From: Chitinophagales bacterium
Lineage (GTDB): Bacteria; Bacteroidota; Bacteroidia; Chitinophagales; Chitinophagaceae
Length of the DNA: 64,000 bases
Direction of reading: 5' to 3'
NCBI GenBank assembly: GCA_017303455.1
Contig: JAFLBM010000007.1
Span: forward strand, 62,001 to 126,000
A model generated the notes under the pieces. It was not told the DNA's origin, did no database searches, and was given only the letters and a program-made list of their open reading frames with translations. The translations under genes and the position numbers were made by a program. This document shows, one piece after another, positions 2,381 through 35,515 of the stretch (positions are counted from its first letter, which is position 1; every line of letters starts with the position of its first letter).

Positions 2381-2485
2381 TAAAAATAAATTGTCTTAAA
2401 TAATGGGCAAAAGTAACTCAAAATCACGGAAATAAGTGTGTTGATTATCACAATACTGCTTTTGAGGCTGATTTGTTGTACAAAA

Positions 2486-3223
2486 TCATGTTTCCACCTG
2501 AACAAGGGCATCAAGATGGCGGATTCCGATCTTTTTTTCACTGATAAACCCTTCGGCATACTTTACACCGATACGTTTGCCAAACATTCTTGCCCGGGCA
2601 ATCACGGCATCTAAAAAGTCGGGTGTGGAGATATAAGTTTGAGGACCATCTGCATCACTGTCTGGTGTATGGAATTGTGTTGTATACGCTTCGATGGATT
2701 TCATCCGTTGTTCAAAAACATCGCTGATGTCTATTAACAAATCTGGTTCATGATACCAGTCCTGTATATAATGCAGCACATAAGACGGGCGCCATCTTGC
2801 CTGTGCAGTCCCCTCCTCATCTTTTGTTTCAATTTTTGCCAGGCCCGAAAGGAAACAGCAATCGGCAATCATATTTCCTGCACGGCCATGATCAGGATGA
2901 CGGTCATTCAATACGTTGGCAATAACAATATCGGGCTGGTACTTACGAATGGCAGTGATAAGTTTTAACTGGTGTTCTTCATCATTCCTGAAAAAGCCGT
3001 CTCTCATTTTCAGGTTCTCCCTTACCTGTACGCCGATGATCATCGCTGCATTCGCCGCTTCCTGGTAACGGGTTTCAACAGTGCCCCTTGTTCCCAGCTC
3101 TCCTTGTGTCAGGTCAAGAATACCGGCTTTTTTGCCTCTTTTTATTTCATTGATCAATACACCGGAACAGCCAAGTTCCACATCATCCGGGTGAACACCG
3201 ATGGCAAGTATATCTAGTTTCAT
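2486..3223 (-). CDS. bshB1: Bacillithiol biosynthesis deacetylase BshB1
   Basis: This 245-residue PIG-L/LmbE-type zinc hydrolase removes the acetyl group from GlcNAc-malate, the second step of bacillithiol synthesis. The zinc-binding motif HPDD is at residues 11-14, and the second metal/active-site motif DRHPDHGRAG lies near the middle. The start LDILAIGVHPDDVELG and the TQGELGTRG stretch are characteristic of the BshB1 clade in Bacteroidota. bshA and bshC are not in the window. The gene starts with ATG at 3223 and is separated by about 105 bases from the desaturase start. Confidence 0.93.
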   Translation of the reverse strand: MKLDILAIGVHPDDVELGCSGVLINEIKRGKKAGILDLTQGELGTRGTVETRYQEAANAAMIIGVQVRENLKMRDGFFRNDEEHQLKLITAIRKYQPDIVIANVLNDRHPDHGRAGNMIADCCFLSGLAKIETKDEEGTAQARWRPSYVLHYIQDWYHEPDLLIDISDVFEQRMKSIEAYTTQFHTPDSDADGPQTYISTPDFLDAVIARARMFGKRIGVKYAEGFISEKKIGIRHLDALVQVET

Positions 3224-3328
3224 ATTTCTTTTTAAAACGATTAGTAAGGAGTCCGAAGAAGATCATCCCTGATGATAAAGTTATGGAAATCGGGAAGAAA
3301 TTTTATGCAGGAGGAAGAGCAGGCGGTC

Positions 3329-4012
3329 TTATTTCCTGTAAGGATTATTATACCAGACGCCGTCTATCTCCACCACGAAGTTTTCGATCTGCCGGTCGGT
3401 CTTATCGGCGAGGTCCCAATCCTGTTTCAGGTTGCCACCTACAAAAAAAGCGATCGTCTGGTAAAGCCTTGCATTCACCCCACCTTTATATTCTTTTAAA
3501 ATTTCGTAGCAGTTATTACCGGTTTGGCGGTTGATGAGCTTCATCAATACTTTTCCCTGGTAAACAGAAAGGTTGGATAAAGGATCACCGAATTGTTTTT
3601 TTAATTCTTTCTCCCGTGATTTAATATAGGCCTTTCGTTCTTTTTTTGAACTGATATTCTCCAGGTTGGTATTGATATCATTAATAGTGGCACCGGCGAT
3701 CTTTGCATAAGGATAGGTAACATACACGGCATTTCTCAAACGGGTCCATTCCTTCACATACTTCTCTAATTTTTTGCCGGATAGATTGCCCACCCAAACC
3801 ATGCCCAGTTCTTTATAAGGCATCACCTCATTTTCATACACAATGGCATCCACGATGATGGTGTCATTGGAACCCCAGTTCCGGGCTACTTCATGCATGG
3901 AAGCTGTGCGGGGCTGTTGTTCAGACTGGCCAAAGGCAAAGGCACTTGCCAGGAGACAGACAACGGCGATAGCAAAATGAAACTGATATCGTAATAACGT
4001 TTTCACAGTCAT
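3329..4012 (-). CDS. Exported DUF4294 domain protein
   Basis: The product is 227 residues with a hydrophobic N-terminal segment ending in AFAFGQ that looks like a Sec signal peptide. The body contains the DUF4294 pattern of the Bacteroidota family (YENEVMPYKELGMVWV, then VYVTYPYAK, then a C-terminal VWYNNPYRK). Function is unknown; the protein should be periplasmic. It lies 68 bases downstream of ccmF on the same strand and may be cotranscribed with the ccmE-ccmF pair. Confidence 0.82.
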   Translation of the reverse strand: MTVKTLLRYQFHFAIAVVCLLASAFAFGQSEQQPRTASMHEVARNWGSNDTIIVDAIVYENEVMPYKELGMVWVGNLSGKKLEKYVKEWTRLRNAVYVTYPYAKIAGATINDINTNLENISSKKERKAYIKSREKELKKQFGDPLSNLSVYQGKVLMKLINRQTGNNCYEILKEYKGGVNARLYQTIAFFVGGNLKQDWDLADKTDRQIENFVVEIDGVWYNNPYRK

Positions 4013-4080
4013 TAAAAATACAAAATGCTTGCTGATAATGTACAGACAGGAAAACGGACCGAAACGCTGTACAAAGCAGG

Positions 4081-6687
4081 TTATATTTCCAGTTTTTCTG
4101 CTTTCAGCCGGTTGAGCTGGATACGTCGTACCATGCTGACCAGTATGCCAATAGCTGTAATAGCCACACCCAGCCAGAGCAAAATGATATAGGGAAATTT
4201 GTAAGCTTTTAATGTTACATATTTCATCACCGCATCTGATTCTTTTACGCCCAGTTCTATCGATTTGTCCGGGTTCACTTTCTGTAATTGCAGCACCAGG
4301 CTCTCCGCCAGGGTGGTGTCAGGGAGGGCCAGCAACTCTCCTTTTGCAATGGCCAGCCTGGGTACTTTTGTATAACTGGTGCCATTCTTTGAAAATATTT
4401 TGACAGAAGCTTCGTGCAACGATCCTTCTTTGCCAAAAAGATCTTCCGGCAAGTTTGTTTTAGCAACAACATCTTCCAGGATCATAAACCCGTTGGAGTA
4501 GAAAAGAGAATCACCGGGTTTCAGCACATTTGTTTTAAATGTAGTGGTGTCTTTTTTTTGTTGCTCGGGGTCGGGTAATGATGTGATATAGGTGAATACA
4601 TCATGATCAAGATAATGACGGGAAGAAGGGTTGGCCATCAGGCCTGCATTGCCTTTATAGTTAACAAAAGCATTGGGCTGTAAAATAAAATCTTCTTTTC
4701 CATCCTTGCGCTGAAAATGGATATTGTAATACCATTGCTGTTTTTTCGGGTGCATCGAATCGCTTTCATAGGTCACCCAGTATTTACCCATATCGGTTTT
4801 GATACCCTTAACCAGTGTCAGGTTTTCACCGGGATTTTCTTTGCTGCCTTCACCCAGTGGCACAAATATGCCGCTGGTATTCCTTGATAATATTTCTTTA
4901 TTAGAAGAAGAGATAAGAATAGCAAACAGCACCATTCCAAATCCAAAGTGGGCAATGGAACCGCCGGATAACTTCAGGCTTCCTTTTAATCCCAGCCAGA
5001 TATATGAGATATTGGCTACCATGGCATAGATGCTGCAAACAACAGCCAGCCAGATAGCACCCTGGAACATGGGCCCCTTTTTTGTATAGGTGATATCATA
5101 CATCGCAAACAAGGCCACCGATAAAATGGCCGTGATCACGGTTGGCGTCACGATCTTTTTCCAGAAATAAGAAGAGGGAGTGTTTTTATATTTCAAATAT
5201 TGTGTTACCGCAGTAAGTAAAGCCAGTATCACAGCTACATAGATCTGGATATTATTATAAGCAAATTCAGGATCCTCTGAAGGTGCTTTTTTGATAGCGA
5301 ACAATTGGTTGAATACGGGCAGGGATGTCTGCGTGATAATGACAATTGCCGACAAGAAGAAAACTAATGAGCCAATGAACATCCAGAATTCCCTGGAAGA
5401 AGTGGCTTCTTCTTTTTGAACAGTGGGCACCTGTGTTTGAATCTGATAAATAGTAAAACCAATACCTGTAAGTAAGGCTAATGAACCCAGCCATGCGATA
5501 TTAACATAGTTACTCAGCAGTGCCAGTACGGTTGCTATGGCCAGTACGCCCAGTATTGACCTGAGATTTTTTGCACCTATGATTCCTGCCAGCCATACAA
5601 AGGAATACATGAACAGGAATAATTGTTTATTCATGCCCAGGTCAGTAAAGGCGTGAACAGATGTTTCGCCCAATATGCCGCTCCGGGTGAGGAAGGTGGA
5701 ATACAATACAAAAAGGAAAGAGAGTATCAGGAACAGGTAAGCTGAACGCAATGAATGCCCGCTGTGTTTATAAATAAGTAAAGTGTGTAAGCCAGAAACC
5801 AATATCAGCCAGGGCACCAATGATGCGTTCTCTACAGGGTCCCAGGCCCAGTAACCACCGAAGGTTAGCGATTCATAAGCCCACATGCCGCCCATCATGA
5901 TACCCACGCCCAGAACAGCTGTGGCGAATAAGGTCCAGGGAATGGCTTGTTTTACCCAGTCACCAAAATTCTTTGTCCATAGGCCGGCAACAGCAAAAGC
6001 AAATGGAACAATGGTAGACGCAAAGCCAAGGAACAATACCGGTGGATGAATAACCATCCAATAGTTTTGAAGTAATGGGTTCAGGTCATTACCATCCCTG
6101 ATGGATAAAAGATAGTCAGGTTTCAGGGGCTGGGTTACATCAAGATCAATATGCAAAGCAGCTGCCCCATCCAGCACTCCGGAGTCTCTGAGTAACAGGA
6201 ACGGGTTGGAACCAATATTATGACCAAAAATATAAATACCGGCGATCATTGTTGCCAGCCAAACCTGTGCAAAACTGACCACGGTCATCACCGGGGCTTC
6301 CCATTTCTTGCTTGTTTTTATTAATATTAATCCCAGCACACAATGCCAGATACTCCACAACAGGAAACTACCTTCCTGACCTTCCCAGAAGCAAGCCAGC
6401 AGGTATTTGAACTCCAGCGATAAGCTACTGTGCTGCCAGGCGTATTTGTATTCAAAAAGATGATTGTAGATGATATAAAATAGAATACCAAAGATGGCAA
6501 ATACAGATATACACTCTGTGATGAAAGCAAAACGTCCCAGCCGTTTCCAATACCCGGCATCCTGTTCGGGTTTGGTGCGGGTGGCCATAAAGTAAGCAAA
6601 AGTCGCAACCAGGGAAGCGACTAACGAAAGAACGATAAAGAAATGTCCTAACTGGCCTGGTAAAAGGTGTTCGCCTGCGTAATCCAT
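4081..6687 (-). CDS. ccmF: Cytochrome c maturation heme lyase, CcmF/CcsA type
   Basis: This 868-residue polytopic membrane protein carries the tryptophan-rich heme-handling signature GGYWAWDPVENASLVPW near residues 280-296, and many transmembrane helices before and after it. The long soluble C-terminal region (about residues 610-820) ends in a final transmembrane helix, as in CcmF, which attaches heme from CcmE to apocytochrome c in the periplasm. ccmE lies directly upstream, with 12 bases between its stop and this start. Bacteroidota versions are often annotated simply as CcsA; the pairing with ccmE supports CcmF. No other ccm genes are nearby. Confidence 0.9.
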   Translation of the reverse strand: MDYAGEHLLPGQLGHFFIVLSLVASLVATFAYFMATRTKPEQDAGYWKRLGRFAFITECISVFAIFGILFYIIYNHLFEYKYAWQHSSLSLEFKYLLACFWEGQEGSFLLWSIWHCVLGLILIKTSKKWEAPVMTVVSFAQVWLATMIAGIYIFGHNIGSNPFLLLRDSGVLDGAAALHIDLDVTQPLKPDYLLSIRDGNDLNPLLQNYWMVIHPPVLFLGFASTIVPFAFAVAGLWTKNFGDWVKQAIPWTLFATAVLGVGIMMGGMWAYESLTFGGYWAWDPVENASLVPWLILVSGLHTLLIYKHSGHSLRSAYLFLILSFLFVLYSTFLTRSGILGETSVHAFTDLGMNKQLFLFMYSFVWLAGIIGAKNLRSILGVLAIATVLALLSNYVNIAWLGSLALLTGIGFTIYQIQTQVPTVQKEEATSSREFWMFIGSLVFFLSAIVIITQTSLPVFNQLFAIKKAPSEDPEFAYNNIQIYVAVILALLTAVTQYLKYKNTPSSYFWKKIVTPTVITAILSVALFAMYDITYTKKGPMFQGAIWLAVVCSIYAMVANISYIWLGLKGSLKLSGGSIAHFGFGMVLFAILISSSNKEILSRNTSGIFVPLGEGSKENPGENLTLVKGIKTDMGKYWVTYESDSMHPKKQQWYYNIHFQRKDGKEDFILQPNAFVNYKGNAGLMANPSSRHYLDHDVFTYITSLPDPEQQKKDTTTFKTNVLKPGDSLFYSNGFMILEDVVAKTNLPEDLFGKEGSLHEASVKIFSKNGTSYTKVPRLAIAKGELLALPDTTLAESLVLQLQKVNPDKSIELGVKESDAVMKYVTLKAYKFPYIILLWLGVAITAIGILVSMVRRIQLNRLKAEKLEI

Positions 6688-8582: not shown

Positions 8583-9860
8583 ATGAAATTTCTCTCTTTA
8601 ATGCTGGCATTATCTGTCAGTTTGTTGTTGCACTCCCAGGGTACAGAAAAGACATATTTGCTGAAAGTTGCCAAACTGTATGACAGTGAGAAAAACAGCT
8701 TCCTGAAAAACCAGGAGATACTGGTAAAAGGTAAGAAGATTGAAAAGGTGGGTACCAACCTCACCAAACCGGAAGGCGCTGAAGTGATCAACCTGCAAAG
8801 CTGTACGGTAACCCCCGGCCTTATAGATGCCCATACACATGTGCTTACCATTCAGAAAATGACTGATCCCCTGGAAACAGATCTTTTTGTGAATGGTGAT
8901 ATGGAAAGAACACTGCGTGCCGTTGGTATTTGTAAAAGTTTTTTAGAGGCAGGTTTCACTACGATCCGCGACCTCGGTAATTCCGGTCAGTTCCTTGATC
9001 TCAATCTTAAACGGGCCATCGGTAATGGATGGATGATTGGCCCCAGGATGGTTGTTTCGGGTCCTATATTAAGCCCGGAAGACGGACAATTCTTTAACCT
9101 CGCTTCGCATAACCGCTTTGTAATTGATAAAGAATACCGGGTGATCAAAAATGTGGAGGATGCCAGGCAGGCAGTAAAGGATCATATTTCCAAAGGGGCG
9201 GATGTGATAAAAGTGGTGATGGGCGATGGCCGCATCACCTTGCCGCTGGAGGAAGTGAAAATGATCGTAGAAACAGCACATTCATTCGGAATAAAAGTAA
9301 CTGCCCATGCCACCTATGATGCCGTGATTGACCGTGCTCTGGAAGCCGGTGTGGATGGAATAGAACACGGGTATGGTATCGCAGACAGTTTGTTGGATAA
9401 AATGGCCAGGAAAAAAATATATCTCGTTCCAACCATTGGGGATTATGATGCGTATATCCGGCTCTTTGCGGATAATGAAAGAAAAATCACTCCCGATGAA
9501 CTGAATGGCCTGCGTTCTTATGTCGCAGCCGGGGAAACCATTGTGAAGAAAGCAATCGAAAAGGGAGTGATGGTGGTGAATGGCTCTGATATGTATCTTT
9601 TTAATAAGATACCACAGGGGCAAGCAGCAAAAAATACACTGGATACTTATTTTGAAGCCTGTAATAACCCTGCTGATGTGTTGAAGACAGCTACCAAAAA
9701 TGCGGCCATCGCCTGCGGGGTGGATGGTTTTACAGGAGTGATAAAAGAAAATATGACGGCGGATATTGTTGCCTTTGAAGGTGACCTGGAAAAAGATTTT
9801 AAGAAGACTTTGTACAAGGTGAAATTTGTAATGAAAGAAGGACAGATATACGTACGGTAA
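8583..9860 (+). CDS. Exported amidohydrolase (imidazolonepropionase/prolidase-like)
   Basis: This is a 425-residue member of the metal-dependent amidohydrolase superfamily. The N-terminus (MKFLSLMLALSVSLLLHSQG) is a signal peptide, so the enzyme works in the periplasm or outside. Metal-ligand motifs are visible in order: DAHTH after the first strand, AHATYD, GIEHG, and NGSDM near residue 339. Close relatives are annotated as Xaa-Pro dipeptidase or imidazolonepropionase-like; the substrate cannot be named from sequence. The yggS gene follows after nine bases, suggesting cotranscription. Confidence 0.85.
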   Translation: MKFLSLMLALSVSLLLHSQGTEKTYLLKVAKLYDSEKNSFLKNQEILVKGKKIEKVGTNLTKPEGAEVINLQSCTVTPGLIDAHTHVLTIQKMTDPLETDLFVNGDMERTLRAVGICKSFLEAGFTTIRDLGNSGQFLDLNLKRAIGNGWMIGPRMVVSGPILSPEDGQFFNLASHNRFVIDKEYRVIKNVEDARQAVKDHISKGADVIKVVMGDGRITLPLEEVKMIVETAHSFGIKVTAHATYDAVIDRALEAGVDGIEHGYGIADSLLDKMARKKIYLVPTIGDYDAYIRLFADNERKITPDELNGLRSYVAAGETIVKKAIEKGVMVVNGSDMYLFNKIPQGQAAKNTLDTYFEACNNPADVLKTATKNAAIACGVDGFTGVIKENMTADIVAFEGDLEKDFKKTLYKVKFVMKEGQIYVR

Positions 9861-28543: not shown

Positions 28544-29806
28544 TCAGAGCAGGTTATCTTCCTTGTACTGGTATTGTTCTTTGATCTTCCGCATCACTTC
28601 ATCCATGCTGGCCCGGTGATCTTTCGGGTTCCATTCACCCCGTTCCCATTGATCCAGTTCCTTATCAATATGCTTTTGTTGTAAGGTTGTCATTTTTTCC
28701 ACCAGCTGGTCCGACATTTCTTTTTGTTTCTGGTAGAAGATCTTCTTTTTCTGGTACCCGTTCTCTTTATCTTTCCGGATATCATTTTCATCAGACGCCA
28801 TCTGGATCAGTTCTTCTTTGGCCAATGCAATATCATAAGGCCCCACCGGCATCATGAGCTTGGAAAGGATCGGCCCGATCTCAATTAAGATGATAAGAGA
28901 GGACAATAATAAACTGGTCCACCATACACTGCTTTCTTCCATACTGAGATCGGATAAAGCTTTGTTCCGTTCCAGGAAACCCATATTCGCCAATGCCGCC
29001 ACTTCATATTCTTTTCGTTTTCCTTCCAGTCCTGCTTTGGCGGTACTGATGATACTGTCCTGCTGCCCGATAGAAGAAGATAAAAGAGCTAACTCGGGCC
29101 GGTATTGCAGTACTGCGTTCTGGTAAGCCGCTTGTTTCAGCCGGGTTAAATTATCAATGCCTCTTTGCCCCGAGCCGCCCGTGCCATCTGCTTCCTGGAT
29201 ATAACTGGTCTGCAACCGTTGCAGGGTGTCTTCTATCGCCAGCTTGCGGTTGGTGAGTCTTAGCCGTTCTGTTTCTGCCGCGGCCATCAATGCTTTATTT
29301 TCTATTTGCAGTAAACTGTCATTGCGCTGCACTTTTTTATGCAGGTTCTCCGTCATCTTTACATTGATCTCTTTTTCAAAGATCTTCAGCTCTAATGGTC
29401 TTGCAATAGTAAGGCCAATCAGCAGGGCCAGCCCGATCCGGGGCACGGCCATCCAGATCTGTTTGCGTTTACTGACCCCATACTTACGCATGGTGGAAAC
29501 CAGGAAACGGTCGAAGTTGAAAATGATGAGCCCCCATATCAATGCAAACGCAATGGTCCATACCCAGTTGCCAAATACACTGTACACAGCATAACCGGCA
29601 GATAAGGTAGCGAGTACAAAGGTGGCTAACAGTACACCGCCCAGCCCGGCATACTTGGTATGCTCTGATGGAAGCGGTTTCAGTAATTGCTGGTGGGCAC
29701 CGGCGCACCACCATAAAAAATTAGGGGACGATCGTTGTGCAGGTGTGCCGCTGAAGGAGTCATAGGTATATAACCCTTCCTCCCGGCCTGGGTTGGTTTC
29801 AGCCAT
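28544..29806 (-). CDS. DUF4407 membrane protein
   Basis: The 420-residue protein matches DUF4407: FLWWCAGA near residue 31, transmembrane helices at about 55-72, 79-100 and 128-142, a long coiled-coil central region (about 150-270), a further helix near 292-312 and a charged helical C-terminus. The motif FNFDRFLVSTMRK is typical. Function is unknown; topology suggests two membrane hairpins separated by an extracytoplasmic coiled coil. The first 25 residues are polar and poorly conserved-looking. Confidence 0.87.
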   Translation of the reverse strand: MAETNPGREEGLYTYDSFSGTPAQRSSPNFLWWCAGAHQQLLKPLPSEHTKYAGLGGVLLATFVLATLSAGYAVYSVFGNWVWTIAFALIWGLIIFNFDRFLVSTMRKYGVSKRKQIWMAVPRIGLALLIGLTIARPLELKIFEKEINVKMTENLHKKVQRNDSLLQIENKALMAAAETERLRLTNRKLAIEDTLQRLQTSYIQEADGTGGSGQRGIDNLTRLKQAAYQNAVLQYRPELALLSSSIGQQDSIISTAKAGLEGKRKEYEVAALANMGFLERNKALSDLSMEESSVWWTSLLLSSLIILIEIGPILSKLMMPVGPYDIALAKEELIQMASDENDIRKDKENGYQKKKIFYQKQKEMSDQLVEKMTTLQQKHIDKELDQWERGEWNPKDHRASMDEVMRKIKEQYQYKEDNLL

Positions 29807-30443
29807 GGTCAGTGATTTACAGTAATAAAATCGGTTATGTAAAAATGGGTTGAAGGAGGACGCCTGTATAACGGGAAGTTGAATTCGAAAGTATGGAGAA
29901 ACTAGTTAAGGAAATAATAAAAGGGGTACTGTTTTCCTGCTGTTGTTTTTTGGGGCTCCGTGTTCAGTAAGTACGCCGTTGCTGGTATCCTGAGCCTGTC
30001 GAAGGGCTCACCAGCAACACGAACTATAGAGTTATTTCAATTTTCTTATTTACTTTTTGGCATTGCCCCAAAAAGTAACAAAAAGGTCTAGGTAAAACGA
30101 ATGCCTCCGGCCGTTTTACCTGCCCACGCACCTTTGTTGTGACAGGAAACGGAAACATAGTTTGCATTCGTATCGTGAGATGCAAGCGGGAAGATACAAA
30201 GGCGTGGCTGGCAGGAACTCCGGTGGCGCTGTGTTCCGTCCTGCTCTCTTTATAATTGTTGGAATCTGAAAAACGGACGGAACAAGGCGCTGCAATTCAT
30301 TTTGTTTGCCGCCGTGTTTTTAGCCCACGGCCTTCAGCCGTGGGATGCTGTATGTAAGGAAAGGTGGGGGATTGGTTTTAACCAATTACCATTGTTGTGA
30401 TAACAAAAGGATTTTTTTTTCGTTTTGGAGGAAATCAGCACTT
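29807..30443. other. Hairpin-rich non-coding block
   Basis: This 637-base stretch has no convincing gene. From 29974 on it carries at least six inverted repeats, several nested: 29978-29986/30010-30018, 30050-30060/30068-30078, 30090-30099/30112-30121, 30124-30137/30196-30207 (one bulge, enclosing 30162-30167/30180-30185), 30233-30241/30275-30283 and 30324-30331/30337-30344. The first is a partial copy of the repeat found at 33245 and 33873. The last (CCCACGGC/GCCGTGGG) looks like a REP-type palindrome. Confidence 0.6.
29974..30040 (+). repeat. Accessory-region repeat, partial copy A
   Basis: This copy contains the first hairpin (GTTGCTGGT/ACCAGCAAC) and the following conserved stretch to GTTATTTC, matching copy B at 33245 closely by eye. 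It also includes the common bacterial interspersed word GAGCCTGTCGAAGGGCTC. The second half of the element is absent. Confidence 0.7.
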
Positions 30444-31325
30444 ATGCGGTTACTGTCTTCTGCCTGTTGGCTACTTTGCGTAGCCATTTTTTCATCCTGT
30501 AAAACCGAAAAAGCAAATGAGTTGTATGCAACTTTGGAACAGAGCCTCGGTAGTTCTGATAGAACACTGGATCGTTATACAGCTTCCGTATTGTTTGAAT
30601 TAGACAAAAAGTTGAACGAGGCATTTTCGCAAGAAAAGGCTGGCTTTTGGTACCCCAAAGCAATAAGGATAAATGAGATTTCTAAAAAGACCTATGTATA
30701 TATCGAGACGCTAAAGGGTGCAAAGGATAAGCAACCGGTAATAATTAACAGAGCATCGTCCGACGAGCTTTTTGCTAAGCTTATTGAATACAGGGACAGT
30801 ATGTTGGGCACTGACCCAAAAATCAACGAAGTTTTTAAAGAGCAAGAATTTTTGATTATAAAGGAGATGAATACTTCTGAGAATAATAAAGAGAATTTTT
30901 ATAAATCTTTTTTTCAGGAAAAGAAAGCCGGGGAAATTTCTCTTTTCTTAAGCACTCTTCAAAACAGAATAAAAATTTTTGAGAACAAATTGGTTATTTT
31001 CTGCAATGAACATGTCGGTGGAATGAATGACTGGTTTGATTCATACTCTGCTATTATTGGACAAAATAAAGCACAATTATTACCCGGGCAATTCATCGAA
31101 ATAACAGCCGGGGTGGGGGCATTCAGTGTAAAAGCAAAACCTGTGATAAGTATAAAGAAAAAGCTTCAGGAGATAAGCGAAGATGGTGCGGTGCATTATA
31201 AAGCCAGAGTTCCTTCGACTCCCGGTAATTACTTTATTCCGGTTGAGATTTCTTTTATAGATGAATTCGGAAAACAACAGACCATTTCAAAGAGTATAGA
31301 ATATAAAGTTGTAAAACCTCAATAA
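30444..31325 (+). CDS. GldM-like lipoprotein
   Basis: From ATG 30444 the product has 293 residues; GGAGG at about 30427-30431 is an unusually strong ribosome-binding site for this phylum, and the start places a lipobox (AIFSSC, Cys19) correctly. The mature part is helical (about 25-190) and ends with beta-rich domains. Segments SLFLSTLQNRIKIFENKL and YSAIIGQNKAQLLPGQF resemble the end of the helical domain and start of the second domain of the gliding/T9SS motor protein GldM. GldM itself has a transmembrane helix instead of a lipid anchor and is about 520 residues. Function here is inferred only; no other gld genes are near. Confidence 0.65.
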   Translation: MRLLSSACWLLCVAIFSSCKTEKANELYATLEQSLGSSDRTLDRYTASVLFELDKKLNEAFSQEKAGFWYPKAIRINEISKKTYVYIETLKGAKDKQPVIINRASSDELFAKLIEYRDSMLGTDPKINEVFKEQEFLIIKEMNTSENNKENFYKSFFQEKKAGEISLFLSTLQNRIKIFENKLVIFCNEHVGGMNDWFDSYSAIIGQNKAQLLPGQFIEITAGVGAFSVKAKPVISIKKKLQEISEDGAVHYKARVPSTPGNYFIPVEISFIDEFGKQQTISKSIEYKVVKPQ

Positions 31326-31331
31326 ATGAAC

Positions 31332-31364
31332 AGGGTTGCCAGCTTTTAAAAAGCTGGCAACCCT
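31332..31364. terminator. Bidirectional terminator hairpin
   Basis: A 14-bp perfect stem (31332-31345/31351-31364) with a five-base loop lies between the convergent GldM-like and GNAT genes; short A and T runs flank it. Confidence 0.75.
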
Positions 31365-31383
31365 TTGTGTTCCCTCTTGTTCT

Positions 31384-31953
31384 TTATGACCCGGCCTTCT
31401 GCTGTTTTAATTGCAGCCATTCGCTTTTCAGCATAGCGAACTGGTATTCGCTTCCCCATTGACCTTTAAAGAAAATGTTTTCGATAAAATGTCCTTCCTG
31501 CCGGAAGCCGGTACTTTTCAGCAGTTGGATGGAGGCGATGTTGTCGGCATCTACCGTTTCGGTGACCCGGTGAAAGCCGGGAAGGCTGAATAGAAAATCC
31601 AGGATAGAAAGAAGCGTCTCTTTGGCATAGCCTTTTTGTTGTTCGGCCGGTGCAATGGTTATACCGATCTCCGCCAGCCGGGTATCGTTGCCATCCAGTT
31701 TGACCGCACAGTCACCTATTAACCGGCCGGTGCTTTTGTTTTCAATAGCATACTGCACCCATTCGCCGGGGGTGCCAAATTCTTTATTGGTTTGTTCGTT
31801 GATGAAATCTTCTGCCTGCTGCAGTGAAAAAACATCAAAGCCCTGGTATTTGGTTACTTCGGGGTTGGAGCGGTAGGCATGGAAATCCGTAAGGTCTGCT
31901 AATCTTAGATTCCTTATCAACAGGCGTTCGGTATGTAATATCAATTTATTCAT
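31384..31953 (-). CDS. GNAT family N-acetyltransferase
   Basis: With ATG at 31953 the protein has 189 residues of the RimJ/RimL-like (Acetyltransf_3) group. Signatures are LHTERLLIRNLRLADL at the N-terminus, GRLIGDCAVK, the acetyl-CoA pyrophosphate loop APAEQQKGYAKETL, and NIASIQLLKSTGFRQEG near the C-terminus. The acceptor is unknown; ribosomal protein or small-molecule amines are common targets in this group. Confidence 0.87.
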   Translation of the reverse strand: MNKLILHTERLLIRNLRLADLTDFHAYRSNPEVTKYQGFDVFSLQQAEDFINEQTNKEFGTPGEWVQYAIENKSTGRLIGDCAVKLDGNDTRLAEIGITIAPAEQQKGYAKETLLSILDFLFSLPGFHRVTETVDADNIASIQLLKSTGFRQEGHFIENIFFKGQWGSEYQFAMLKSEWLQLKQQKAGS

Positions 31954-31972
31954 TGCTACTGTAAAATTCACA

Positions 31973-32611
31973 CTAATTTATTTCGTCAATACTTATGTCA
32001 AGTAACTGCCCGTTTACAGGGTAAACTCCTTTTTTCCATATTTCTTTGTCAAACGGAGGTAATGTTTTTTCCTCCCTGAAATATTGTCCTGATGTTTTAA
32101 AGTCAATGAACTCTTCGCTCCCAATCTTTCTGATAAATTCAAACTCGGTGTTGGGAAATGTTTTTTCGTCTTCAAGTATGTCCAGGTACTGCCCCCATAA
32201 AAAAAGCGTCTTTTGTTGTCCTTTCTCCGTTACTGAAACATAGTAAGCAATTCCGAAGTCCTCAAAATCTGCTCTTTTTACAGCCCTGGTTGTTTGCACT
32301 TTTACAACTTCAACTTTTCCTGTTTGTATTGCGTGTATTTGTTTTGCGTTTGAAAATCCGCCTTCAAACTTCTTTGTTATCCAAAGTGCAATAGCAACTG
32401 CAAGGATCATGATAATGATACAATAGATTGCCTGGGTGCCGGATGCTACTGGTCTGAAATAATCATAAATAAGCAGTGGGGCAAGCAGAATCATGGCAAT
32501 TACTATCAGTTTCAAAACAAAATGTTCAAACCGCTTATAAAGCCCCGGTAACCGCTTTATTTGTTGTTTTTTTTCGGCTTGGGTAAATTCTCTGATGGTT
32601 GATGTGATCAC
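31973..32611 (-). CDS. Membrane protein of unknown function
   Basis: The 212-residue product has two transmembrane helices (about 31-50 and 62-78) followed by a soluble C-terminal domain of about 125 residues (KQIHAIQTGKVEVVKVQTTR, then FGIAYYVSV and FLWGQYLDIL). No family is recognised. It starts 19 bases upstream of the GNAT gene on the same strand, so the two may be cotranscribed. Confidence 0.65.
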   Translation of the reverse strand: MITSTIREFTQAEKKQQIKRLPGLYKRFEHFVLKLIVIAMILLAPLLIYDYFRPVASGTQAIYCIIIMILAVAIALWITKKFEGGFSNAKQIHAIQTGKVEVVKVQTTRAVKRADFEDFGIAYYVSVTEKGQQKTLFLWGQYLDILEDEKTFPNTEFEFIRKIGSEEFIDFKTSGQYFREEKTLPPFDKEIWKKGVYPVNGQLLDISIDEIN

Positions 32612-32643
32612 TTAATTATTTTTTTTCTCTATCAGGTTTGTTT

Positions 32644-32699
32644 TGAAATTTATAGATGCAAATTAGTAACTAATCGCCTTATAATATTGCGGTGGATGC
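32644..32699 (+). repeat. Accessory-region repeat, decayed copy D
   Basis: This 56-base stretch aligns by eye with the central part of copies B and C (from GAAATTT through GCAAATTA and TAATCGC to TGCGGT), with roughly three quarters of positions matching. Flanking hairpin arms are lost. It sits between two minus-strand genes, as copies B and C do. Confidence 0.6.
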
Positions 32700-32710
32700 C
32701 GGCTGTTGTT

Positions 32711-33226
32711 TTACTTATGCAAAATCCTATGCAATTTTTCATAGTCTCCATCCTGCCCGAAATCATTTGTGTTGGCAATTGTTCCGGTTATGTGGTGTTG
32801 CATACACTCAAAGCAGATCTTAGCCGTTCCAATAACTTTATTTTGCACTTTGAATATCAGGATATCACGAAAAATAGGGATGCAGGCTGTGGTAATACCT
32901 TCCTTGACTTTCTTTTCAATGAATATGTTATCAATGGCTTCAAATTCAGATTTGTCAACAGTTTTCTTTGTATACCCGATCTCTTCCAGTTTGTCAATAA
33001 AATATAAATCCTGGTTGTCTTTTGGGATATACCCGCTAATGACACTTAATTTCAGAGAATCAATTACAGACAGGTGCTGGTTTTCACTTAAAGCCTGAAG
33101 TTTGGATCCGTGAAAATCAATTGAGTAGTGTGTAATCTCATCGTAGGTAAAGAATTTTTTGCCTTTCTTTTCCCGGCAACTGGTCAAAGCCAGGCTTAGT
33201 AGTGTAACAAAAAGAATTTGTCTCAT
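32711..33226 (-). CDS. Lipoprotein of unknown function
   Basis: The 171-residue product starts with a lipoprotein signal (LLSLALTSC, Cys17) and continues as a soluble domain with two further cysteines in KICFECMQHHITG. No family is recognised. It is bounded by repeat copy B upstream (18 bases before its start) and decayed copy D downstream. Confidence 0.65.
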   Translation of the reverse strand: MRQILFVTLLSLALTSCREKKGKKFFTYDEITHYSIDFHGSKLQALSENQHLSVIDSLKLSVISGYIPKDNQDLYFIDKLEEIGYTKKTVDKSEFEAIDNIFIEKKVKEGITTACIPIFRDILIFKVQNKVIGTAKICFECMQHHITGTIANTNDFGQDGDYEKLHRILHK

Positions 33227-33244
33227 TTACTTGTATGTTTTTTG

Positions 33245-33435
33245 CGCCGTTGCTGGTATCCTGTGCCTGGCGAAGGGCTCACCAGCAACACGAACTGCCG
33301 GGTTATTTCGAAATTTTATAGTCTGCCAATTATTGATTAATCGCTTTACAAAAGTGCGGTTGGTGATACTTCGGCAAGTTCAGTATTTACCAACCCCGGC
33401 GTGTTGGCTATTAGAAGACTAACAAAGGCTGAAAT
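33245..33435 (+). repeat. Accessory-region repeat, full copy B
   Basis: About 190 bases. Hairpin 1 is formed by GTTGCTGGT and ACCAGCAAC near the left end; hairpin 2 by GGTTGGT and ACCAACC near the right end; between them lies a conserved AT-rich spacer. Copy C at 33873 has the same order of parts. It fills the space between two minus-strand genes. Confidence 0.8.
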
Positions 33436-33455
33436 CTTATTTTTTCTTAGAATTA

Positions 33456-33806
33456 TTATAGTTCCTTTAATTCAAGTAAAGCTTCCAGTTTTTTATTTCT
33501 TTCATCCGTTAATTCTTTGAGGCAAGTGTATAATAGTAAAGGCTGCATAGAGCCTCCTTCTGCATCATTACTCTCTAACTTGCAATGAGTCTCTTTATAC
33601 TTAATCCAAGCTCTCTGTGCTTCCAGTAGTAACTTTTTTCCCACCGCATTCTCCTTGGCCATAAGTTTTTTGTAATTGGCTGCCATGATTTTATCAGACG
33701 CCATAAACTCCTTCTGTGCCTGTTCATTCATTTCTGCTTGCGTTTGGGCAAATGAAGAATTTCCAAAAACAATTAAAAAAGCTAAGATTCCCGATGATTT
33801 AAACAT
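33456..33806 (-). CDS. LprI-like (DUF1311) exported protein
   Basis: The 116-residue protein has a signal peptide ending NSSFAQ and a lysozyme-inhibitor LprI N-terminal (DUF1311) domain: EMNEQAQKEFMASDKIMAANY, then LLLEAQRAWIKYKETHCKLE and LYTCLKELTDERNKKLEAL. The two cysteines of the domain are kept. Family members bind lysozyme in some species; the role here is inferred. The gene is enclosed by repeat copies B and C. Confidence 0.85.
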   Translation of the reverse strand: MFKSSGILAFLIVFGNSSFAQTQAEMNEQAQKEFMASDKIMAANYKKLMAKENAVGKKLLLEAQRAWIKYKETHCKLESNDAEGGSMQPLLLYTCLKELTDERNKKLEALLELKEL

Positions 33807-33872
33807 GTAGTATAGATTTTAAAATAATAGTTTACAAGCCTAATGCAGATGAGTGTGTTGTTTTGGTTTTTA

Positions 33873-34030
33873 CGCCGTTGCTGGTGTTTCTCACCAGCAA
33901 CACTAGCTGTCGGGTTATGTCGAAATTTGTAGTTTGCAAATTATTGATTAATCGCTTTACAAAACTGCGGTTGGTGAAAAACACCAACCTCGGCGTGCTG
34001 GCTATTGGAAGACCAACAAAGGCTGAAATG
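33873..34030 (+). repeat. Accessory-region repeat, full copy C
   Basis: About 158 bases, same architecture as copy B but with shorter hairpin loops: GTTGCTGGT/ACCAGCAAC around 33877-33899 and GGTTGGTG/CACCAACC around 33969-33988. The right end (CAACAAAGGCTGAAAT) matches copy B. Confidence 0.8.
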
Positions 34031-34064
34031 ATGTTATTTTCATAATTGTGAAGTGTCAGTTTTG

Positions 34065-34123
34065 TGTTACCGCTATAGGTAACAGATTTGAATTCGGTAG
34101 GATTTTTCAAATGTCCTACCGAA
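34065..34123. other. Two adjacent perfect hairpins
   Basis: TGTTACC/GGTAACA (34065-34071/34078-34084) and TTCGGTAGGA/TCCTACCGAA (34093-34102/34114-34123) follow repeat copy C in the gap before the zincin gene stop. Either could end transcription, though no T tract is present. They may belong to a larger or different repeat. Confidence 0.45.
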
Positions 34124-34282
34124 CGTTGCCAATGATTAAAGTTACAAAAGATGGAAACATTTTGCTACTCATTTGTATAGCATTGAGCTTGATATGCAGC
34201 TGATAATACTACAAAAGCTGAGGCTTAGCCTCCGCCAGCAGGGAAATGTAACTTATTGTTTTAAGACAAACCTATCAAAATA

Positions 34283-35515
34283 CTAATCGAATCTAATTGC
34301 CTTTCCTACTTTTATTAATTTATAATTGATAATTGAGCCGGATGGATTTCTGATTGGTCTCCTTACCATAATTGTTCCATTTGATAAAACGTGATAGGTG
34401 ACATGTGTAGTACTGAACTCCCATTCAACGCCTGCAAATCTTGGTTGTTTGGCATGTCCAATATGAACATATTCGCCATTCAAAGGGCTTACAGCTAGTA
34501 TTCTACTTTTAGTTGTCACTACATATGATAGGGGTATTGTGTCGTTTTCAATAATACATTGCGTTTTTATCATCTCTTGTCCAGAAAATGACCCTTTGAA
34601 AATTTTATTTTTCGGGTAAAATGTAATTCCTGCTGTACTAACTGATACTTGATCGTTGAAAATTAAATCGCCCTTTTCATTAGCTTCTTTTTCTATGCTG
34701 CCCCCTAAATCTTTTAAATAGTCATATGCAAATTTTGCCACTCGCCCTTCCCTGCCATATTGTTCAACATGCATTACTTCGTGGCCCCACCACCATGAAG
34801 CTTGTTTAAAGGTGGGTGGTTGGGCATTAAAAACAATTATATTGTCTACAACAACAGCATAATGGTCTCCCATAAATTTTTTTGTCTGACCAATTGCATT
34901 TGGCAATGTAATTTCAACACTACCTACCGTATATCTTGCACGATTTAATACTTCCGCACTAAAGTAATTCTGTAATCCGGTTTTTACATCATCTGGTAAA
35001 GGTTGTGCTACATCTTTATATTTATTTACGGCGACTTCGATTGCGGTAGCAAGAGGGGCACCCAATACAATAAATGGATTTTCATCCTTTAAAGCCACAG
35101 CGAGAGCTTCAGTCGAGGTAGGGGCAAGCTGATTATAAAATCTCTGGCTAAAAGTCATTAAATCAAATACAAACTCACCTTTCCGCCCAAGTTTTTTTGC
35201 AACAAACGCTTCAGCTTTTTGATACATGATTTCTTGAGGTGCAGCTATAAATGCTACTACCGGCTGAATTTTTTGCAACATTTCTCCTGCATGGGCACTT
35301 TTTGCAATATCCTTATATGGTTGAAAAATTTCTTGAGGCTTACTTACTCCTCTGACAACTTCAACCGTTTTTATTACAGTTTCGGTCGGGGCTTTTGCAA
35401 TGTTAATGCCTGTTTCAACAGCACGTTTGACATACTTCCATGGCTTTTTGAAAGGCTGAGCATTTGTAGAGGTTAACAAAATGGTCAGAAAGGAAAGCAA
35501 AATTATCTTTTTCAT
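34283..35515 (-). CDS. Exported DUF4157-like zinc peptidase
   Basis: The 410-residue product has a signal peptide (KIILLSFLTILLTSTNAQ). A helical N-terminal half leads to a zincin motif HEVMH at residues 245-249, followed by EQYGREG and a downstream EKEAN that supplies the likely third ligand, the pattern of DUF4157-like metallopeptidases. The C-terminal 130 residues are beta-rich and end IKVGKAIRFD. The gene looks richer in A+T than the flanking core genes, consistent with transfer. Substrate is unknown. Confidence 0.7.
   Translation of the reverse strand: MKKIILLSFLTILLTSTNAQPFKKPWKYVKRAVETGINIAKAPTETVIKTVEVVRGVSKPQEIFQPYKDIAKSAHAGEMLQKIQPVVAFIAAPQEIMYQKAEAFVAKKLGRKGEFVFDLMTFSQRFYNQLAPTSTEALAVALKDENPFIVLGAPLATAIEVAVNKYKDVAQPLPDDVKTGLQNYFSAEVLNRARYTVGSVEITLPNAIGQTKKFMGDHYAVVVDNIIVFNAQPPTFKQASWWWGHEVMHVEQYGREGRVAKFAYDYLKDLGGSIEKEANEKGDLIFNDQVSVSTAGITFYPKNKIFKGSFSGQEMIKTQCIIENDTIPLSYVVTTKSRILAVSPLNGEYVHIGHAKQPRFAGVEWEFSTTHVTYHVLSNGTIMVRRPIRNPSGSIINYKLIKVGKAIRFD

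Follow-up and report, generated by a model that had tools for sequence, protein, structure and literature searches.

REPINs have been described as doublets of repetitive extragenic palindromic (REP) sequences that are mobilised by REP-associated tyrosine transposases, or RAYTs (PMC3116915). In TIRtrons, RAYT-like genes named TIRYT are framed by non-GTAG inverted repeats able to form small dispersed families, and a GGGGWSAS motif is reported for some of these terminal inverted repeats, or TIRs (PMC3733652). Members of the TnpA-REP subclass 2.6 are found mostly in Bacteroidetes and have atypical hairpins without GT[AG]G, with copies elsewhere in the genome (PMC6006769). Here we describe hairpin repeats from a Chitinophagales bacterium (assembly GCA_017303455.1), in a stretch of 64,000 nucleotides (contig JAFLBM010000007.1, positions 62,001 to 126,000) that we call the window. 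It contains four copies, E1 to E4, and three of these separate genes of a minus-strand accessory array. We consider it probable that repeats of the E1/E2 type are REP doublets of a Bacteroidota RAYT, most likely its non-autonomous passengers, mobilised in trans and gathered in accessory-gene hotspots.

Likened by description, the present family appears close to subclass 2.6, with a RAYT-type HUH protein of Bacteroidota, flanking hairpins without GT[AG]G and dispersed copies. In contrast to the subclass as it is described in the accessible text of that report (PMC6006769), one foot-and-arm consensus extends here across several Bacteroidota orders, and the repeats stand in arrays with gene turnover. 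As in REPINs, at least as the available text presents them, a pair of inverted hairpins surrounds a spacer, the whole gives one closed fold and there is a link to a RAYT. Our repeats differ from REPINs in four respects: the foot is CGCC in place of GTAG/GGAG, the spacer is longer, copies are few in the window genome and one side has an extra half-REP. With TIRtrons, according to the part of their description that is accessible, they have in common a RAYT-like gene inside non-GTAG inverted repeats; the difference is that here we see clear hairpins sharing a common arm. Finally, the gene-repeat-gene order with turnover is like that of integron cassette arrays with their attC sites, but the integrase match is under the cut-off, the core boxes are absent and the orientation is not fixed throughout the family.

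The link to a RAYT comes from the ends of the repeats. A search of the window genome (G000; 4.55 Mb, 50 contigs) with E1 gave nine places. Two belong to the window; the other seven, on contigs C9 and C45, match in the end hairpins only. On C9 and C45 these ends, ACGCCGTTGTTGGTGTTTCTCACCAACAAC on the left and GCGGTTGGTGAAAAACACCAACCTCGGCGT on the right, frame an open reading frame (ORF) of 172 amino acids (aa). The right end of E1 is identical to that on C45 (31/31) and to that of a deletion derivative of the RAYT element on C9 (32/32; L009 9015-9317), which is one internally deleted element; the intact C9 element agrees at 31/32. The left end of E1 agrees with C45 at 32 of 34 bases, and the two differences make up one compensatory stem pair, C-G to T-A.

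The framed ORFs match Y1_Tnp with 29.1 bits on C45 and 25.2 bits on C9 (cut-off 23; the whole window genome has nine such matches). The more specific NF047646, REP_Tyr_transpos, was passed by the proteins of C45 (96.5 bits), of the sister species G091 (92.9) and of C9 (89.1) at a cut-off of 80. As best solved relative of the C45 ORF we found TnpArep of E. coli (4er8, E 1e-4). The C45 ORF has HLH, the HUH motif, at position 56, and its Y132 is aligned with the DYI tyrosine of 4er8; we take Y132 to be the catalytic tyrosine. Because the terminal hairpins match those framing RAYT genes in the same genome, the window repeats are likely to be passengers of a RAYT. A first-pass annotation of the window had named a REP or miniature inverted-repeat transposable element (MITE) family as the main alternative to integron cassettes; this alternative proved right, and the owner would be the RAYT framed by the same hairpins.

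The copies themselves are real. E1 (33872-33996, minus strand) is a REPIN-type doublet with a left hairpin at 33877-33901, a spacer, a right hairpin at 33968-33988 and an ACGCC foot at each outer end. The element proper stops at GGCGT, position 33996, which corrects the earlier limits of 33873-34030. E2 (33244-33402, minus strand) is also a doublet and has an orthologue in G091. Compared within their earlier limits (33245-33435 for E2), E1 and E2 are 80% identical over 158 aligned bases (E 1e-36), and both consist of two REP hairpins inverted around a spacer, as the REPIN definition has it and as the first-pass annotation had seen in its two palindromes per full copy. E4 (29973-30044, plus strand) is a solo left end; from 29974 to 30044 it matches the left hairpin of E2 (89% over 73 bases, E 1e-21). 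E3 (32645-32693, minus strand) is a decayed remnant with similarity confined to the spacer (80% over 50 bases, E 3e-6). A decayed spacer of E3 type recurs at the equivalent place in G091 (L050 10675-10720, 74% over 46 bases), and we therefore accept E3 as real though weak. Since E2 and E3 are common to the sister species, the window copies are old and need not be active now.

Folded as single-stranded DNA, E1 forms two hairpins and an outer closing stem, ACGCC/GGCGT, on both strands, with z-scores of -5.33 and -5.25 and 0 of 200 shuffles equally stable. Folded one at a time, the two E2 hairpins score less well (z -2.06 and -2.41; 7/200 and 5/200 shuffles equally stable); the E4 hairpin folds strongly (z -4.14). 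A palindrome of the CCTGAGCCTGTCGAAGG type lies in the hairpin loops of E2 and E4 (29974-30020, 33245-33292, 33356-33403) and of the E2 orthologue in G091, as if one REP were nested inside the loop of another. An Rfam scan of 29500-35000 gave four matches, all far under the gathering scores, on which ground a known RNA family was rejected as identity of the repeats.

Past the right end, a conserved extension of about 35 bases follows E1 (33997-34030, minus strand); it is common to E2 and to copies of G091 and of three further genomes (G133, G284, G086), where, as in others, it comes after the hairpin. In E2 (33403-33435, minus strand) it reads TTAG-AAGA-CTAA against TTGG-AAGA-CCAA in E1, a compensatory change. 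On the minus strand the extension is GCC-TTTGTTGGTCTTCC, that is, foot, arm and loop of the family hairpin without the second arm. It looks like half of a further hairpin, and extension and element together may be read as a half-REP followed by a whole REP. The RAYT elements of the window genome do not carry it. Another repeat (AAAAAGTAACAAAAAGG ... GGACGGAACAAGGCGCTG) is fused to the solo left hairpin of E4 at 30041-30310. The same pairing is present in G167 C23 (L052) and G219 C338 (L054), and was seen by eye in G091 C2 and G219 C510.

Pairing of hairpins with RAYTs extends well beyond this genome. Of 154 stretches in a named genome collection that code for relatives of this RAYT we took the best 80, the closest among these being on DGQP01000001.1 of Chitinophagaceae bacterium UBA4411. 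After exclusion of 15 loci for short flanks, the 65 whose ORF had 320 bases to either side were tested for one hairpin occurring in inverted orientation left and right of the RAYT ORF, two hairpins being counted as the same when their 5' arms had a 7-mer in common. One hairpin family was found inverted on both sides in 37 of the 65 loci, from Bacteroidota and kin, as compared with 0 of 54 control windows placed 1.5 kb further out. YTTGTTGGTG is the most frequent hairpin arm; among the 74 feet of the paired loci, 27 end in GCC. A second RAYT stands inside the locus in 8 of the 80, so arrays of the form RAYT-gene-RAYT are uncommon.

The repeats form a dispersed, intergenic multicopy family. A model of the right hairpin plus extension, built from ten copies which are themselves among its matches, matched 101 of the 294 genomes of the family at E 0.01, a count that takes in the training genomes; an earlier DNA search, in which the best two candidates were scored per genome, had matched at least 22 of the 294. 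Single genomes hold up to at least 17 matches (17 candidates scored). TTT stands before the left end in 12 of 17 copies, an 18th copy (L101) that does not match the pattern being unscored; this is only suggestive of a T-rich target.

Several observations weigh against the proposed passenger relationship. The hairpins have a CGCC foot, and the GTAG/GGAG tetranucleotide of canonical REPs is not present; as subclass 2.6 REPs are reported without GT[AG]G, this excludes the canonical class only. By the same test as above, 28 of the 65 RAYT loci have no matching hairpin pair. The window genome has about ten matches, where a classic REP would have hundreds. A search for clean empty sites at loci of G091 and G000, extended to two other genera, found none. 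E4 sits in a 467-base segment (29925-30391) that is absent from G091 and holds another repeat too, and at the remaining sites the genomes differ by whole gene segments. The spacer of E1 and E2 does not appear to be derived from the RAYT interior: in one of eight comparisons of spacer with RAYT interior, 35 of 2000 shuffles scored as well, and in the other seven the similarity was at shuffle level, for which reason we rejected the idea that E1 and E2 are internal deletions of the RAYT element.

The RAYT on C4 has a different REP-like family on its flanks (GCTGCGGAACTT..AGTTCCGCAGC, with a GCCTTTGGCGATG hairpin), which also occurs three times between accessory genes on C11 (copies at L104 862-931 and 1485-1545 and at L264 7104-8429).

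As the first-pass annotation had stated, E1, E2 and E3 occupy successive gaps between minus-strand ORFs, here at 34283-35515, 33456-33806, 32711-33226 and 31973-32611. The first, labelled a zincin in the first-pass annotation, encodes 410 aa; it has an HEVMH motif but gave no match in the Pfam and NCBIfam scans. The second, 33456-33806, is LprI-like, a label borne out by its PF07007 match. The third is a lipoprotein-like ORF of 171 aa, which stands beside E2 in G091 as well, and the fourth a membrane protein-like ORF of 212 aa. The genes between copies are mutually unrelated at E 0.01 in the window (4 tested), in L051 (3) and in L246 (3); the three such ORFs of L244 (G044) are homologous to each other and represent tandem gene copies. 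L246, from another genus (G288), is a second array resembling that of the window: at 2382-4713 it has three copies in the same orientation, each just 3' of a different co-directional ORF. G091 has two PF00144 genes for serine hydrolases of the beta-lactamase family (L051 8467-9831 and L096 2677-4188, 32% identical), each between two element copies at separate loci.

Such arrays prompt comparison with integron gene cassettes, and the first-pass annotation had been reminded of cassettes with attC sites; on this reading the repeats would be divergent attC sites, recombined by an integron integrase. Arrays of non-homologous co-directional genes split by a single repeat do exist, the window, G091 C8 (L051) and G288 (L246) each having one, and genes beside the repeats turn over. 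However, the best match in the window genome to TIGR02249, the model for integron integrases, reaches 96 bits against a cut-off of 265, the nine sub-threshold stretches having their like in all 14 control genomes. The GTTRRRY and RYYYAAC boxes, which the annotation itself had failed to find, are absent from both strands of E1 to E4, and the same hairpins frame a RAYT.

The orientation of the repeats is also mixed. It was counted for 54 of 83 model rows, namely 50 of the 56 rows of at least 45 bits and four lower ones (L243 4467, L244 2163 and 3854, and L050); left out were four RAYT-element ends (L009, L010, L096), L231 1185-1246 and L228 33-101. The ORF on the extension side is co-directional in 23 copies and opposed in 26, and 5 copies have no such ORF; owing to relatedness among the genomes, many of these rows are not independent. 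In three of the 54 copies (L243, L254, L256) the first ORF met on the side of the hairpin, at a distance of 124-158 bases, has the RAYT motif, and two of these ORFs exceed the RAYT cut-off (88.8 and 80.1), that of L256 lying below it (74.5). A fixed, cassette-like orientation holds in the window, in G091 C8 and in L246 and fails across the family. With the integrase under the cut-off, the core boxes absent and the orientation mixed, we rejected attC identity, and integron cassettes seem to us extremely improbable. The annotation had tied the fall of the cassette reading to the lack of both turnover and integrase; no integrase passes the cut-off, whereas the turnover that it suspected is there, as genes beside the repeats differ between related species.

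The same count bears on another explanation, according to which the hairpins are domesticated and act mainly as transcript ends or messenger RNA (mRNA) stabilisers behind genes, the RAYT link being historical. The distance from the stop codon to the start of the element is at most 40 bases in 13 of 23 co-directional copies, against 3 of 26 in the opposite orientation, and the hairpins are stable. Still, the opposite orientation is equally common (26), and E2 of G091 keeps its position though the upstream LprI gene is gone. We judge domestication quite unlikely as the main role of these elements.

Turnover is best seen by comparison of the window with G091, where synteny covers 53,152 of the 64,000 bases. 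E2, the lipoprotein gene, E3 and a GNAT gene are common to both (88% in DNA). G091 is without the membrane gene (31973-32611) between the GNAT gene and E3, and synteny ends at 33429, adjoining the end of E2. We found no DNA match in G091 for the LprI or the 410-aa gene, with 40 of 82 candidates scored. G091 carries about 17 kb of other DNA before the gene for glutaminyl-tRNA synthetase (GlnRS) resumes, Cas9, Cas1 and Cas2 genes among it. L274 217-7478 (C5:140217-147478), in place of the LprI and 410-aa genes, contains Cas9 (TIGR01865), Cas1 (TIGR03639), a DNA-methyltransferase-like ORF and Cas2 (TIGR01573).

Could a RAYT itself drive this exchange? A REP-type single-tyrosine HUH transposase, acting from one element end, would carry the adjacent gene by one-ended single-strand transposition while the hairpin elements stay fixed at their chromosomal site; gene-element units would thus be swapped at fixed sites, cassette-like without an integron. 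The C9 locus, compared with G091 C5:378-388k, speaks for it. Both genomes have kept the RAYT elements, with the peptidase and DUF1801 genes on the flanks, and of the cargo ORFs, three on C9 and four on C5, none is common (all-against-all blastp, E 1e-3); one of the three on C9 is fused in frame to a DUF1801 fragment. In G000 a 137-base copy of the start of DUF1801 is joined, after GACAGTTT, straight to the left element end, and on the other side of the deletion derivative (9015-9317) there is a different gene, then the full DUF1801. A left-end junction at a T-rich site, with the opposite side resolved by homology, would be expected from one-ended transposition, but unequal recombination could produce the same, and the duplicated start of DUF1801 is likewise explained by homologous recombination with flanking identity. 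A single open frame of 467 codons (L009 8006-9409) runs from the DUF1801 fragment through the deletion derivative into the following gene; two proteins may thus have been fused by the element. The motif GCTAACAT at the C9 cargo boundaries has too few occurrences across nine loci to be meaningful.

Elements at C45, C8:145k, C13 and C8:484k likewise adjoin unshared segments. Of ten element sites in G000 and G091, seven were evaluable, the others being C8:293k (right flank unmatched in G000), C11:327k (both flanks unmatched) and C2:2659. All seven adjoin a segment not shared with the sister species, which involves genes, or a break beside genes, at six; the seventh is E4 with its 467 bases without a gene. 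Against this association stands the baseline, since turnover is frequent in the region regardless: 16 of 53 window gene junctions touch a synteny break, as judged from 11 hand-listed breaks, some being element sites themselves. With a baseline that is not low and sites that were not drawn at random, the association with turnover is suggestive and not proven. Nor is turnover total, one C13 cargo gene being common to G000 and G167 (96%), and neither a unit with two defined ends nor the empty site mentioned above was found. Exchange driven by the transposase appears unlikely to us. RAYTs may cause the turnover, or they may simply accumulate where recombination is frequent.

We prefer to see the repeats as REP doublets, likely mobilised in trans by a RAYT. 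Binding of the transposase to hairpins and CGCC foot in single-stranded form would be followed by cutting of the ends and their rejoining at a position between genes. On this view the array is probably a recombination hotspot where such repeats collect. Accessory genes would enter and leave it by ordinary recombination, and the repeats, alike at several places, may provide homology for it. Hotspots of rapid gene turnover are known in general, as far as the accessible text tells (PMC5635113). In titles and abstract openings, mostly from non-subscription journals, we found no work tying RAYTs to the exchange of neighbouring genes, which is weak evidence of absence.

The accessible text of the report on subclass 2.6 treats the persistence of RAYT genes as an open question (PMC6006769). 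That RAYTs sit where neighbouring genes differ between species suggests a concrete, testable link to this persistence. An apparent integron-like array becomes a named and testable REP/RAYT family, with a GCC foot and a YTTGTTGGTG arm, recurring through Bacteroidota. It also calls for caution, as gene-repeat-gene arrays with turnover can arise without an integron. If the exchange of genes by RAYTs were true, REP/RAYT pairs would be engines of accessory-gene exchange in Bacteroidota and not passive intergenic debris.

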